Made by a program: the position numbers and the translations under genes. The notes below the pieces were generated by a model. It made no database searches. It saw only the letters and a list, made by a program, of their open reading frames with translations, and had not been told where the DNA came from. From positions 434,001 through 498,000 of the forward strand of contig NZ_JAFIQX010000003.1 in the NCBI RefSeq assembly GCF_017356035.1: a stretch of 64,000 nt of DNA. The letters run 5' to 3'. The DNA is from Longitalea luteola. GTDB lineage: Bacteria > Bacteroidota > Bacteroidia > Chitinophagales > Chitinophagaceae. Of this stretch, positions 3,439 through 46,093 are shown piece after piece (the stretch's first letter is position 1; every line of letters starts with the position of its first letter).

Positions 3439-3444
3439 ATGCTA

Positions 3445-3486
3445 AACGCCAAACGTTGAACGCTGAACGCAAAACGCGAAACGCAG
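3445..3486. repeat. Heptamer array, AACGCNN x6
   Basis: Six consecutive 7-base units of consensus AACGCNN (one reads AACGTTG) lie in perfect phase. The array is preceded by TATGCTA, exactly as is the array at 46038-46093. Confidence 0.9.
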
Positions 3487-3494
3487 AAAGGTGA

Positions 3495-3589
3495 ATGGGC
3501 AATGGTCAATGGTCAATGGGCAATGGCGAAAATGGGCAATGGTGAATAGGCGATGGGCCCATAGCCCAGTAACCGGCAACCGGTTACCG
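3495..3589. repeat. Heptamer arrays, ATGGNNA x9 then GNNACCG x3
   Basis: Nine units of ATGGGCA, ATGGTCA or ATGGTGA type run from 3495 to 3559 with a single 2-base slip at 3530. After nine bases, three units of GNNACCG follow at 3569-3589. Together with the preceding AACGCNN array this spacer strings three different 7-base families end to end. Confidence 0.88.
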
Positions 3590-6436: not shown

Positions 6437-6485
6437 GCCTTCCGCCCTTAGCCTTGCGCCTTGCGCCTTGAACCTTGTGCCTTAT
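6437..6485. repeat. Heptamer array, GCCTTNN x7
   Basis: Seven units of GCCTTGC, GCCTTGA, ACCTTGT type lie in unbroken 7-base phase. They end ten bases before the start codon of the TPR gene, so they occupy its leader or promoter. Confidence 0.92.
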
Positions 6486-9738: not shown

Positions 9739-9790
9739 TGTGATAATCCCGCAAAGCGGGACAAGTTGTAATAATTTGATAATTTGATAA
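9739..9790. repeat. Octamer array TGTGATAA with internal hairpin after recN
   Basis: One TGTGATAA unit directly follows the recN stop. It is followed by a small perfect hairpin (TCCCGC, AAA, GCGGGA at 9747-9761) and then two TTTGATAA units at 9775-9790. The array ends in TGGAAA, as does the one after the M1 peptidase gene. Confidence 0.85.
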
Positions 9791-11373: not shown

Positions 11374-11450
11374 GTCGGAGGTCTGTAGTCGAAAGTCCGA
11401 ATTCGGAAATCAGAAGTCTGAGGTCAGAAATCGGAGGTCGGAAATCAGAC
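11374..11450. repeat. Heptamer array, RTCNGRR x11
   Basis: Eleven consecutive 7-base units such as GTCGGAG, GTCTGAG, GTCAGAA and ATCGGAG stay in perfect phase over 77 bases, although neighbouring units are mostly not identical. It follows fabI directly. Confidence 0.95.
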
Positions 11451-12773: not shown

Positions 12774-12805
12774 TGTGATAATGTGATAATTCGATGATGT
12801 GATAA
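12774..12805. repeat. Octamer array TGTGATAA x4, left arm of an inverted pair
   Basis: Four 8-base units (TGTGATAA with one TTCGATGA) begin directly after the lolD stop codon, in lolD sense orientation. They are the inverted counterpart of the array at 12932-12967. Confidence 0.9.
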
Positions 12806-12931
12806 TGAATCCACCCGTTTTTCAACCAACTGATCAAGATCAAGTCTAATGCATGCCGTGAGTTAGGAAAGTATTGGTGTTGAAGGTCTTTAGGTTGGTG
12901 TTCAATAGGCCGCCCGCAAGGTTGAGGTATC

Positions 12932-12967
12932 CATTATCACATTATCACATTATCTAATCATCACATT
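12932..12967. repeat. Octamer array, right arm of the inverted pair
   Basis: Four units of CATTATCA type (reverse complement of TGTGATAATG) run directly into the stop codon of the convergent adenosyltransferase gene. Each of the two convergent genes therefore ends in the same sense-oriented octamer array, and the 126-base spacer could form a long hairpin loop. Confidence 0.9.
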
Positions 12968-13527: not shown

Positions 13528-13576
13528 ATGGTGAATGGTCAATGGTGAATGGTCAATGGTGAATGGTGAATGGGTT
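13528..13576. repeat. Heptamer array, ATGGTSA x7, abutting a start codon
   Basis: Seven 7-base units alternate ATGGTGA and ATGGTCA in perfect phase. On the minus strand this sits immediately upstream of the adenosyltransferase ATG and so must be its leader or promoter region. Confidence 0.93.
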
Positions 13577-13680
13577 GCTCAACTTCAAAGCTTCAAAATT
13601 AATTCCAAAACGCCGTATGCTTTGAATCCTGCATTTAGTGCCCTGGAACCTTAGAATCTGAAACCGTTGCTTGGCAGGCT

Positions 13681-13729
13681 GAACTATAAACTGTGAACTG
13701 TGAACTATAAACTATGAACTGTAAACTTT
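13681..13729. repeat. Heptamer array, RAACTNT x7
   Basis: Seven in-phase units such as GAACTAT, AAACTGT and GAACTGT run up to the stop codon of the minus-strand ABC ATPase. Confidence 0.93.
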
Positions 13730-14838: not shown

Positions 14839-14922
14839 AGGTGTGAGTGGTGAGTTGTGACCGGTGAGTGGGGCTAAAGGCTAAAAGCTAAAGGCTTAAG
14901 GCGGAAGGTGAAAGGCGAAAGG
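14839..14922. repeat. Heptamer arrays, AGTGGTG x5 then CTAAAGG x7
   Basis: Twelve 7-base units stay in one phase while the word changes from AGTGGTG type (14839-14873) to CTAAAGG type (14874-14922). The shared phase across the change of word is the striking part. Confidence 0.9.
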
Positions 14923-21022: not shown

Positions 21023-21058
21023 CATTGCACATTTGCACATTTACTAATTTTCACATTA
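21023..21058. repeat. Degenerate octamer array running into the pssA start
   Basis: Units CATTGCA, CATTTGCA, CATTTACT, AATTTTCA and CATTA keep an 8-base step and merge with the pssA ATG. They resemble the right arm at 26208-26239. Confidence 0.7.
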
Positions 21059-21823: not shown

Positions 21824-22065
21824 CCTATACAGTTCAGGTGAAGGTAATGCCGTTAAAAGAATTGCTCGATCCGCAGGGAAAAGCCGTAATGGGTGGATTA
21901 CAAAACCTGGGATTAGGAAATATTCAGGATGTTCGGGTAGGTAAAAATATCACCCTGCAGGTAGAAGCCAACACCCCTGACCAGGCAAAAGCCATTGCCG
22001 AAGAAGCTTCCAAAAAGTTACTCGCAAATCCAGTGATGGAATACTTTGAACTTTCAATTAGCTGA
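21820..22065 (+). CDS. purS: Phosphoribosylformylglycinamidine synthase subunit PurS
   Basis: An 81-residue small subunit that bridges PurL and PurQ in the fourth step of purine synthesis. The whole length aligns with the family: VQVKVMPLKELLDPQGKAV near the start and a C-terminal AEEASKKLLANPVMEYFEL. purL and purQ are not nearby. It starts inside the pssA stop, and an octamer array follows its own stop without a gap. Confidence 0.92.
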   Translation: MTYTVQVKVMPLKELLDPQGKAVMGGLQNLGLGNIQDVRVGKNITLQVEANTPDQAKAIAEEASKKLLANPVMEYFELSIS

Positions 22066-22097
22066 TTTGATAATTTGATAATGTGATAATTTGATAA
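22066..22097. repeat. Octamer array TTTGATAA x4, left arm around the four-helix gene
   Basis: Four 8-base units (TTTGATAA, one TGTGATAA) begin directly after the purS stop. The reverse-complement array lies at 22526-22561 on the far side of the four-helix-bundle gene. Confidence 0.9.
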
Positions 22098-22140
22098 TTG
22101 GGCACCCTCTGGTAGTAGCAACCTTTATTAATATAATTAT

Positions 22141-22512
22141 ATGAAAAAAGAGTTGCTGGATCAAAATGTCATTTTGAAGCTGTCTTTGGATTTTTCTTTG
22201 ATGTTGATAGCTTATTGTGAAGAATTGGATGCCCTTAGAAAATTCGTAATTTCCAAACAATTACTCAGGTCGGGAACATCTATAGGTGCAAATACTGTTG
22301 AAGCTCAAAACGCCGAAAGCAAAGCTGACTTCATTCACAAGATGAAGTTAGCAGCTAAAGAGGCTGAAGAAACCCAATACTGGCTTATGTTGTGCGAATA
22401 TTCACAGAACTTTCCGGAGTGTAAGGCGCTTGTTTTAAAATTAGAGCAGATCCAGCGGGTTTTGGCCAAGATATTGTCAACTTCAAAAAAGAATAACCGT
22501 ATCGCACAGTAG
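22141..22512 (+). CDS. Four-helix-bundle protein of the 23S rRNA intervening-sequence family
   Basis: A 123-residue all-helical protein. The stretch LLRSGTSIGANTVEAQNAES and the later HKMKLAAKEAEETQYWL are hallmarks of the family first met inside intervening sequences of 23S rRNA genes; a homopentameric bundle with unknown function. Here the gene is free-standing between purS and rsmI. It is enclosed by inverted octamer arrays (22066-22097 and 22526-22561), so it looks like the cargo of a hairpin element inserted into the operon. Start ATG at 22141. Confidence 0.88.
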   Translation: MKKELLDQNVILKLSLDFSLMLIAYCEELDALRKFVISKQLLRSGTSIGANTVEAQNAESKADFIHKMKLAAKEAEETQYWLMLCEYSQNFPECKALVLKLEQIQRVLAKILSTSKKNNRIAQ

Positions 22513-22525
22513 CCAACTTGTATTC

Positions 22526-22561
22526 CATTATCACATTATCGAATCATCACATTATCACATT
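22526..22561. repeat. Octamer array CATTATCA, right arm, running into the rsmI start
   Basis: Four 8-base units (CATTATCA, CATTATCG, AATCATCA, CATTATCA) lead straight into the ATG of rsmI. They are inverted relative to 22066-22097. Confidence 0.9.
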
Positions 22562-23993: not shown

Positions 23994-24042
23994 ACTTAGA
24001 ACTTACAACTTAAAACTTTGAACTTTAAACTTTGAACTTATA
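23994..24042. repeat. Heptamer array, ACTTNNA x7
   Basis: Seven in-phase units such as ACTTAGA, ACTTACA, ACTTTGA and ACTTTAA begin just after the preceding terminator and end 52 bases before the M1 peptidase start. Confidence 0.93.
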
Positions 24043-26124: not shown

Positions 26125-26172
26125 TGTGATAATGTGATAATTCAATAATGTGATAATTCGATAATGTGATAA
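26125..26172. repeat. Octamer array TGTGATAA x6, left arm
   Basis: Six 8-base units (TGTGATAA alternating with TTCAATAA/TTCGATAA) begin eight bases after the M1 peptidase stop, in its sense orientation. Confidence 0.92.
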
Positions 26173-26207
26173 TGGAAACATTCCAGTTATAGCATCAAAA
26201 GGTATTT

Positions 26208-26239
26208 CATTATCACATTATCACATTTGCTAATTATCA
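26208..26239. repeat. Octamer array CATTATCA, right arm
   Basis: Four units (CATTATCA twice, CATTTGCT, AATTATCA) are inverted relative to 26125-26172, with 35 bases between. The pair could fold into one long imperfect hairpin between convergent genes. Confidence 0.88.
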
Positions 26240-26265
26240 CATTGCATTTTAGGTATAACCAATCT

Positions 26266-27159: not shown

Positions 27160-27330
27160 CCGGTTGCCGGTTTCCGGTTACCGGGTGCTTATCAAGTGGC
27201 AGTTACAGGGTACAAGTTTCAGGTTACAGGGATTCAATATCAAGCTCATGCCTGCTTGCAGGCAGCTTTAAATGAAAGTCGGCAACCTGGTAACTGGTAA
27301 CCTGCAACCTGTAACTTGCAACCTGCAACG
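27160..27330. repeat. Three heptamer arrays in one spacer
   Basis: CCGGTTN x4 (27160-27187), RGTTACA type x5 (27201-27235) and GCAACCT/GGTAACT type x7 (27282-27330) are each in 7-base phase. A palindrome TGCCTGC-TT-GCAGGCA (27249-27264) sits between the second and third. The spacer separates the regulator from rsmG. Confidence 0.9.
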
Positions 27331-29383: not shown

Positions 29384-29418
29384 GCAACCTGTAACCTGAA
29401 CCTTGTAACCTGCAACTT
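29384..29418. repeat. Heptamer array, GNAACCT x5
   Basis: Five in-phase units (GCAACCT, GTAACCT, GAACCTT, GTAACCT, GCAACTT) lie upstream of tgt. The same words appear at 27282-27330. Confidence 0.85.
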
Positions 29419-30633: not shown

Positions 30634-30719
30634 GGTTTATGGTTTATGGTTTGTGGTTCTTTAATTCTGCAGCGTCACTTTCCGTAGATCAACAAACCAC
30701 AAACAACAAACAACAAACT
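30634..30719. repeat. Inverted heptamer arrays between convergent tgt and esterase genes
   Basis: GGTTTAT-type units x4 (30634-30661) face ACAAACA-type units x4 (30692-30719). The core GTTTGTGGTT pairs exactly with AACCACAAAC, so the spacer can fold into a hairpin shared by both convergent transcripts. Confidence 0.85.
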
Positions 30720-34402: not shown

Positions 34403-34433
34403 CCCTTCTGCCAATTGGTGGAAGGGTTTTTTT
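34403..34433 (+). terminator. Terminator after gltA
   Basis: A 10-bp stem with two G-U pairs (arms 34403-34412 and 34417-34426, loop AATT) is followed by seven Ts. Confidence 0.92.
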
Positions 34434-34435
34434 AA

Positions 34436-34483
34436 TGTGATAATGTGATGATTTGATGATGTGATGATGTGATGATGTGATGA
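34436..34483. repeat. Octamer array TGTGATGA x6
   Basis: Six 8-base units (TGTGATAA, TGTGATGA, TTTGATGA and three more TGTGATGA) start two bases after the T run of the gltA terminator. No inverted partner is visible in this spacer. Confidence 0.92.
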
Positions 34484-41808: not shown

Positions 41809-41887
41809 TGGAGAATATCGGAGTCGAACCGACGACCTTCCCGACATTACATGTCGGGACGCTCGCCGCCAACTGCGCTAACTCCAA
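41809..41887 (-). pseudogene. tRNA-like module B, chimeric with the tRNA-Ala 3' half
   Basis: 79 bases that read as a tRNA. The D arm is GCGC/GAGC, the T arm is GTCGG-TTCGACT-CCGAT, and the 3' half is identical to the tRNA-Ala at 42043-42116. The anticodon arm has a 7-bp stem (TCCCGAC with GTCGGGA) around loop ATGTAAT, against the usual 5 bp. The acceptor strand TTGGAGT pairs at only five of seven positions. The GTA triplet would suggest Tyr, but there is no long variable arm, so normal function is doubtful. Confidence 0.65.
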
Positions 41888-41924
41888 CGAGTCGAACCGA
41901 CGACCTTCCCGACATTACATGTCG

Positions 41925-42116
<192 letters not shown>

Positions 42117-45759: not shown

Positions 45760-46037
45760 ACTTGTGGTTGTAAGGGTGATTCAATGACCACAGGTATTGG
45801 AAGTAAATTGACTTCTCAGGGGGAGATTGGAGTTGGTATAGGAAGAATCAGGCCGTAAAATGGATTACGTAAAATTTACCTGGCGGAATGTGTTATGCGG
45901 CTGGTCGGCCTGTCAGTAGGAGATTGGGTACGGTTAGTTGATTTATTTTCTTAATACAAATATTAAGACGATTTTTTACATATGCAAGCCTGCAGTTATA
46001 TTTTCAGGGAATATTGATCCTGGATAAGAATATGCTA

Positions 46038-46093
46038 AACGCAAAACGCAAAACGCGGAACGCAAAACGCAGAACGCAAAACGCTGAACGCAC
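46038..46093. repeat. Heptamer array, AACGCNN x8
   Basis: Eight units (AACGCAA, AACGCGG, AACGCAG, AACGCTG and others) in perfect 7-base phase, preceded by TATGCTA as at 3445. It is the last heptamer array in the window. Confidence 0.95.

Follow-up and report, generated by a model that had tools for sequence, protein, structure and literature searches.

Genes for small four-helix-bundle proteins of the rRNA intervening-sequence family (IVP/S23, PF05635) regularly lie between two short arrays of tandem 7- or 8-base units that are inverted copies of each other. The gene found between purS and rsmI in the stretch of Longitalea luteola DNA analyzed here (the window, 64,000 nucleotides) is one case of this general pattern of an IVP gene plus its cognate arms. 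The recurrence of this gene-plus-repeat arrangement suggests that a widespread class of mobile DNA has been overlooked. We consider it probable that an IVP gene and its arms constitute a minimal mobile hairpin element, operating by a logic like that of REPIN/RAYT systems with an unrelated protein. On a wider scale, we lean slightly towards a reading in which IVP/S23 proteins are repeat-reading drivers of mobile hairpins in many phyla and at least one archaeal bin, the heptamer arrays of cyanobacteria, Xanthomonas, Beggiatoaceae, and Bacteroidota represent the non-autonomous populations of these elements, and 23S rRNA intervening sequences (IVSs) are copies that landed in rRNA. If true, three puzzles become one (the role of the IVP/S23 gene, the origin of the heptamer arrays, and the nature of the 23S IVS), and sets of IVPs and units would offer natural protein/short-repeat pairs whose recognition direct binding assays could reveal. 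Heptamer arrays themselves had already been described; here, the IVP gene family is their regular companion.

The window gene (22141-22512, + strand) encodes a protein of 123 aa that matches PF05635 (6.6e-19; 68.5 bits, cut-off 33.8) and TIGR02436 (3.4e-23), in agreement with the original prediction, made from the sequence alone, that it belongs to the four-helix-bundle rRNA intervening-sequence family. PDB 2RLD, an entry with five chains, is the only solved relative by sequence (4.9e-21); a single-sequence structure prediction had a mean pLDDT of 58.8, and no reading was drawn from that model. The upstream arm (22066-22097, + strand) consists of four tandem octamers of the type TKTGATAA in the order TTTGATAA, TTTGATAA, TGTGATAA, TTTGATAA (three of them exact and one a variant), seen in the sequence and by pattern search, and begins at the first base past the purS stop codon (22063-22065). 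This stop codon is contained in the preceding octamer, TTAGCTGA (22058-22065, + strand), which looks like a further, degenerate unit of the array; the equivalent position in genome G001 (locus L108) reads TTAGCTAA TTAGCTAA. Four inverted octamers form the downstream arm (22528-22559, - strand), which ends two bases before the rsmI ATG (22562), so that the bracketing originally described, with four octamers after purS and an inverted array up to rsmI, is borne out by the sequence. In the predicted RNA fold, both arms pair with the gene in the loop (z = -3.31), and none of 100 shuffles was equally stable. The neighbors of the gene are purS and rsmI, not an rRNA gene, and no reverse transcriptase adjoins it.

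The octamer is abundant beyond this locus. A 16-base octamer pattern with up to three mismatches has 25 matches in the window, compared to 1.54 expected and a maximum of five in 100 shuffles, and GTGATAATKTGATAA has 139 matches genome-wide, compared to none for the reversed control. Two further inverted pairs, which had been noted as enclosing 126 and 35 bases, were recovered as gene-less octamer pairs at 12774-12965 (spacer about 120–128 bases; pattern search) and 26125-26241 (spacer about 35 bases; pattern and array searches). Additional octamer arrays are located at 9767-9790 (+ strand, short; pattern search), at 34428-34483 (+ strand, lacking an inverted partner; pattern and array searches), and at 21025-21057 (- strand, TGTGCAAA type; array search), just before pssA. 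In genomes G002 and G004, this site holds an IVP gene from the window gene's clade (L090 and L091), directly followed by pssA (tblastn).

A profile search identified nine PF05635 genes in the genome of the window, and by eye all nine lie between an array and its inverted copy, with a unit that varies between genes: mostly 7 bases, and 8 at the window gene. We compared the best local inverted match between the 300-base flanks of each gene with those of dinucleotide-shuffled flanks (200 shuffles in this genome); for eight of the nine genes, no shuffle was as good, and the ninth (L003) was reached by 7/200. Across ten genomes of the genus, 73 PF05635 matches, including two second fragments of genes already counted, yielded 71 loci, of which 62 beat 100/100 shuffles. 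The nine failures comprise seven broken or cut frames, plus L003 and L087. When orientation was controlled for at p ≤ 0.01 in 69 genus loci (two on short contigs excluded), inverted matches were found for 52/55 intact and 11/14 broken genes, compared to direct matches for 7/55 and 0/14, respectively. On the question of whether other family members are also enclosed by octamer arrays, inverted arrays are indeed present at the homologs, but the octamer is one of many units. We also rejected the notion that all arrays belong to the octamer family.

Units follow proteins. By eye, protein clades within the genus carry clade-typical units, including AGTTCAC and GTTACCGG. Over 61 loci, and using only pairs at non-orthologous sites, protein similarity shows a modest correlation with unit similarity (r = 0.25, with 0/2000 label permutations as good), which falls to r = 0.03 when the unit is reversed; the ten loci excluded from the 71 were two on short contigs, seven with frames <75 aa, and one with a weak arm. 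Every pair among the 61 loci with a protein similarity ≥0.8 has its outer flanks in common, indicating that the genes are inherited in place, and since close relatives in the genus occupy the same site, the IVP gene itself moves rarely. The IVP protein is under purifying selection, with pN/pS values of 0.06–0.26 over 26 chosen pairs and dN/dS values of 0.03–0.16 in the 16 pairs allowing computation; in the window gene's clade, dS is saturated and pN/pS is 0.15–0.22. The original prediction regarded the gene as cargo, which is unlikely given that unit and protein clade go together and that the protein is under purifying selection. Its more specific form, in which the gene is the cargo of the window octamer, was rejected, as IVP clades have their own units. 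At one locus (L078 in G007, which shares its site with L069 and L072), the unit of the relatives surrounds the gene in the opposite orientation.

Most arrays in these genomes do not flank an IVP gene. We sampled 1.74 Mb from nine of the ten genus genomes, taking one continuous region from the genome of the window and one or two contigs from each of the others, and found 286 arrays of 7–9-base units, 282 of which are located away from IVP genes. Only 45/286 arrays lie inside mechanical open reading frames (ORFs) of ≥150 aa, though such ORFs cover 81% of the bases. An inverted partner occurs within 600 bases of 106 of the 282 free arrays (with shuffled flanks, of none), and 221 match some IVP-flank unit of the genus, compared to between 27 and 60 for six permuted unit sets. 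With set size taken into account, the match of free arrays to the IVP units of their own genome was equaled in 6/20000 permutations. In raw counts, a genome's own units are the best set in only three of the nine genomes (G003, G005, and G009), because the larger sets of other genomes match more; they exceed the mean of the others in seven of the nine and fall below it in G007 and G008. Genomes with more IVP genes have a higher array density (Spearman rho 0.79, p = 0.01, nine genomes). Polarity was assessed in 39 gene-less array pairs, not all of which are independent: 34 are arranged as around the gene, two are opposite, and three are ambiguous. The two opposite pairs look like neighboring arms of adjacent elements. 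The core letters of free octamer arrays show no clear agreement with the IVP-flank letters of the same genome, and the candidate explanation that the octamer core drifts in concert with each genome's IVP gene was rejected as not clear; for instance, free arrays in G004 read GATAA, though its IVP flanks mostly read GCAAA, GAAAA, and GCTAA.

The arrangement can be pictured as follows. An element would consist of about four tandem 7- or 8-base units, an IVP gene, and about four inverted units, with the units being lineage-specific. The IVP ring (five four-helix bundles in a solved relative) may bind its own unit on single-stranded RNA or DNA, perhaps with one unit per subunit, and about four units per arm would suit a ring of five. 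Transcribed together with the upstream gene, the element would fold with its own gene in the loop and might be processed by RNase III. IVP, which contains no known catalytic domain, would then let the hairpin be copied or inserted elsewhere, helped by a separate enzyme. Gene-less inverted pairs and single arrays would represent non-autonomous derivatives, and an element inside 23S rRNA would be a classical IVS. The model resembles REPIN/RAYT systems, which combine a vertically inherited gene with many short inverted pairs, diverse spacers, and single-arm remnants (PMC8049555). The IVP system likewise has short inverted pairs of variable spacer and a gene that is vertically inherited at a fixed site (61 genus loci). 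In contrast to RAYTs, IVP is a PF05635 four-helix bundle rather than a Y1 tyrosine (HUH) transposase, and its repeats are tandem arrays of 7- or 8-base units.

The purifying selection on IVP and its stable position in the genus could also be explained if IVP were a repeat-binding post-transcriptional regulator, similar to TRAP or CsrA, with the arrays acting as operators near gene ends; the arrays flanking its own gene would then be autoregulatory, and spread would occur by ordinary recombination and slippage. Arrays do abut stop and start codons, a Xanthomonas relative of IVP is cited as a ring-shaped homopentamer (PMC4990558), and a translational role was proposed for TAACTGA arrays by MacGregor 2015 (PMC4679880). 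We nevertheless consider this explanation unlikely, as a simple operator needs no inverted, paired form of fixed polarity, and sites with and without gene-less pairs exist. Moreover, the spacers of seven gene-less octamer pairs have no common core; in comparisons of the sequence inside gene-less pairs, 1/45 beats 100 shuffles.

The separate enzyme in our mobile hairpin model might itself be the principal mover. In that case, an HUH (RAYT-like) transposase or a reverse transcriptase encoded elsewhere would move the element and IVP would be an accessory, as Avd is in diversity-generating retroelements, a scenario that we regard as quite unlikely. A likeness of PF05635 to Avd, both in sequence and in structure, has been reported (PMC10053308), and among 24 IVP-bearing genomes, 17 have reverse transcriptase matches and 18 have Y1_Tnp matches. 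However, unlike in a diversity-generating retroelement, no reverse transcriptase lies beside the window IVP gene, and four of the 24 carriers (G124, G127, G038, and G158) have neither enzyme at the search threshold. The flank test covered three of these carriers: in G158, one locus beats every shuffle and two do not; in G038, where 5/9 loci were tested, no shuffle reaches one locus and a single shuffle in 100 reaches another; and in G127, the locus is reached five times in 100. Free arrays are sparse in G038 (17 in 280 kb, two of them paired with an inverted array).

Comparison of sites with and without the element bears on which component came first. Between purS and rsmI, the gene lies between arrays in G000, G001, and G003, and a frame-broken copy is present in G004. 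A gene-less inverted octamer hairpin occupies the site in G005, G006, G007, and G009 (71–103 bases in all), and G002 and G008 have 58–70 bases with single TTTGAAAA-like octamers and no arrays. The expected purS-rsmI junction without the gene does exist in the form of these gene-less variants, but none of the ten genus genomes has a fully clean empty site, as G002 and G008 keep octamers. Element-free sites are found elsewhere. The 12774-12965 pair has counterparts with differing inner parts in G001, G003, G004, and G007, is absent from G005, G008, G006, and G009 (2, 12, 44, and 48 bases between the anchors, respectively), and its site is rearranged in G002; both ends of the gap in G005 coincide with array edges. 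Similarly, the L043 element of G009 has counterparts in G003, G004, G005, and G007 (640–780 bases between the anchors), compared to 54–81 bases in G001, G002, and G008, and 112 bases with GTTAAC-like units remaining in G000. A check for target-site duplications showed that the element edges share TAA/TAAT with the unit itself, and no insertion event was observed among the compared genomes. Taken together, the recurring gene with inverted arms, the gene-less forms, and the element-free sites support the mobile hairpin originally proposed for the window feature.

A gene-less purS-rsmI hairpin in 4/10 genomes, together with free arrays that far outnumber IVP genes, might suggest that inverted arrays spread independently of IVP and that IVP genes settled inside them later. 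This order of events appears improbable to us: IVP clades retain their units from genome to genome, and the arrangement is found again and again in many phyla. In addition, gene-bearing and other states alternate within clades of the rsmI and purS tree, a pattern expected from repeated loss of the inner part but also compatible with repeated gain, with one node having a support of 0.28.

Beyond the genus, PF05635 matches occur in 116/148 genomes of the phylum; among the 30 best-scoring loci, 14 beat all shuffles and 16 fail. A plasmid protein search returned 35 records with IVP, mostly cyanobacterial, and 11 of the 15 loci that were fetched pass the inverted-arm test (four fail), with examples including GGGAACA arrays in Nostoc edaphicum and AAAGCTA arrays in Pseudanabaena. 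We further scanned named genomes for the motif S[IV][PC][AS]NIAEG and tested the best 80 among the matches listed: 49 beat all shuffles and 31 fail this strict test, and at p ≤ 0.01, 50/80 pass in inverted orientation compared to 9/80 in direct orientation. The passing loci include some with titles of Acidobacteria, Chloroflexi, Planctomycetota, Verrucomicrobiota, Clostridia, and candidate phyla, and one from an archaeal bin, for which binning errors are possible. An rRNA search in 20 of the 31 failing loci gave no match, with one tRNA found. Another run covered 17 loci, five of which had already been counted (one additional locus was too short); 10 of the 12 previously uncounted loci pass. 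Phage records searched with one IVP protein returned no match.

The best period in the 49 passing named loci is 7 in 32 and 8 in nine, with arms of about four units. G exceeds C in the upstream arm in 41 of these 49 loci (the reverse in six), as it does in 50/61 genus loci (the reverse in 9/61). In raw counts, IVP genes are co-directional with their upstream neighbor in 56/57 genus, 57/67 named, and 12/15 plasmid loci. Neighboring ORFs served as an additional control. In and around the window, 3/110 tests on ORFs of ≥90 aa pass, one being the IVP gene itself and the other two (2/109 for non-IVP ORFs) a single ORF counted twice in overlapping stretches. ORFs neighboring the best 80 named loci pass in 4/92 cases (seven off-centre loci excluded), and three of these four have a tested flank that extends into the IVP element. 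These genomes are rich in arrays of various kinds, but the dinucleotide shuffles, the neighboring ORFs, and the direct-orientation control leave practically no room for a chance effect of AT-rich, simple-repeat-rich intergenic DNA around any small gene.

Three elements (L229, L230, and L242) are located inside CRISPR operons on cyanobacterial plasmids, in the arrangements cas6-IVP-cas4 and cas10-IVP-cmr3. A published figure legend lists IVP as one of several CRISPR-linked proteins (PMC10910872), and some of these links may reflect insertions, not a CRISPR function.

The closest described relatives of the window element are the IVSs of 23S rRNA genes, such as those of Leptospira and Coxiella, which similarly contain an IVP/S23 ORF inside terminal inverted repeats of similar size whose arms pair (in the window, by prediction). 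The Coxiella IVS spans 428 bases and is reported to have a 28-bp stem, with tandem GACAGAT heptamers preceding the S23p ORF; RNase III cuts at the first repeat, and the repeat number differs between strains (PMC4990558). The authors of that study argue against production of S23p, and cite an older idea in which the ORF served mobility (PMC4990558). The heptamers of this IVS are reported at the place equivalent to the window arm. The link originally drawn between the window gene and rRNA IVSs is supported. Unlike these, the window element lies outside 16S and 23S rRNA genes, and has genome-wide gene-less relatives with several parallel unit families per genome. In the open-access literature searched, we found no paper that makes a general connection between IVP genes and heptamer arrays; the Coxiella paper provides a partial precedent, for the heptamers of that single element (PMC4990558).

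Heptamer arrays have been described in several lineages, including the STRR sequences of cyanobacteria, which are heptamers. STRR arrays have been used as a fingerprint (PMC5088731), Geobacter metallireducens has two heptanucleotide families (PMC2700814), and TAACTGA arrays occur in Beggiatoaceae, cyanobacteria, and Bacteroidota, with a transfer mechanism that was not evident (MacGregor 2015, PMC4679880). GGGAATC heptamers in Xanthomonas prefer four units, form 70 inverted pairs in one genome and 75 in another, and are generally without a link to mobile elements (Rehm 2015, PMC4692102). As described, these arrays resemble IVP arms in having a 7-base unit, often about four units, a mostly intergenic location, and a partial organization in inverted pairs. 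In contrast to our findings, in which IVP is their regular companion, the accounts of these arrays consulted here do not connect them with an IVP gene.

If such arrays belong to IVP genes, a genome with GGGAATC arrays is expected to hold an IVP gene within GGGAATC arrays. Among 369 genomes of the class of genome G157, three consecutive GGGAATC units occur only in G527, and the reversed control unit, AGGGCTA, matches only in G315. Both genomes have one PF05635 match each. The G527 gene has a broken frame; it starts with GGGAATC GGCAATG GGGAATC GGGAATC and carries at its end the inverse of GGGAATC GGGAATG GGGAGTA GGGAATC. The automatic flank test fails here (35/100), as the open frame extends into the arrays; judged by eye, the prediction held in the sole carrier genome among the 369. 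In G315, the IVP gene lies between AGGGCCA/AGGGCTG units and their inverse, with 0/100 shuffles as good.

The window also contains 7-base arrays of several units at 3441-3558, 6437-6483, 11375-11449, 13528-13573, 13680-13727, and 14843-14922, and further ones at 23994-24040, 27160-27329, 29386-29416, 30634-30718, and 46037-46092. Since many of them match IVP-flank units of the same genome or a relative, they look like the remains of several parallel families. A 16-base period at 26129-26173 alternates TGTGATAA with TTCGATAA or TTCAATAA, and the 7-base arrays, too, show super-periods, of 14 and 21 bases. Finally, a 68-base unit that resembles a tRNA fragment occurs twice at 41821-41956 (98% identical); the only tRNA that ARAGORN reports in the window is tRNA-Ala at 42042-42116.
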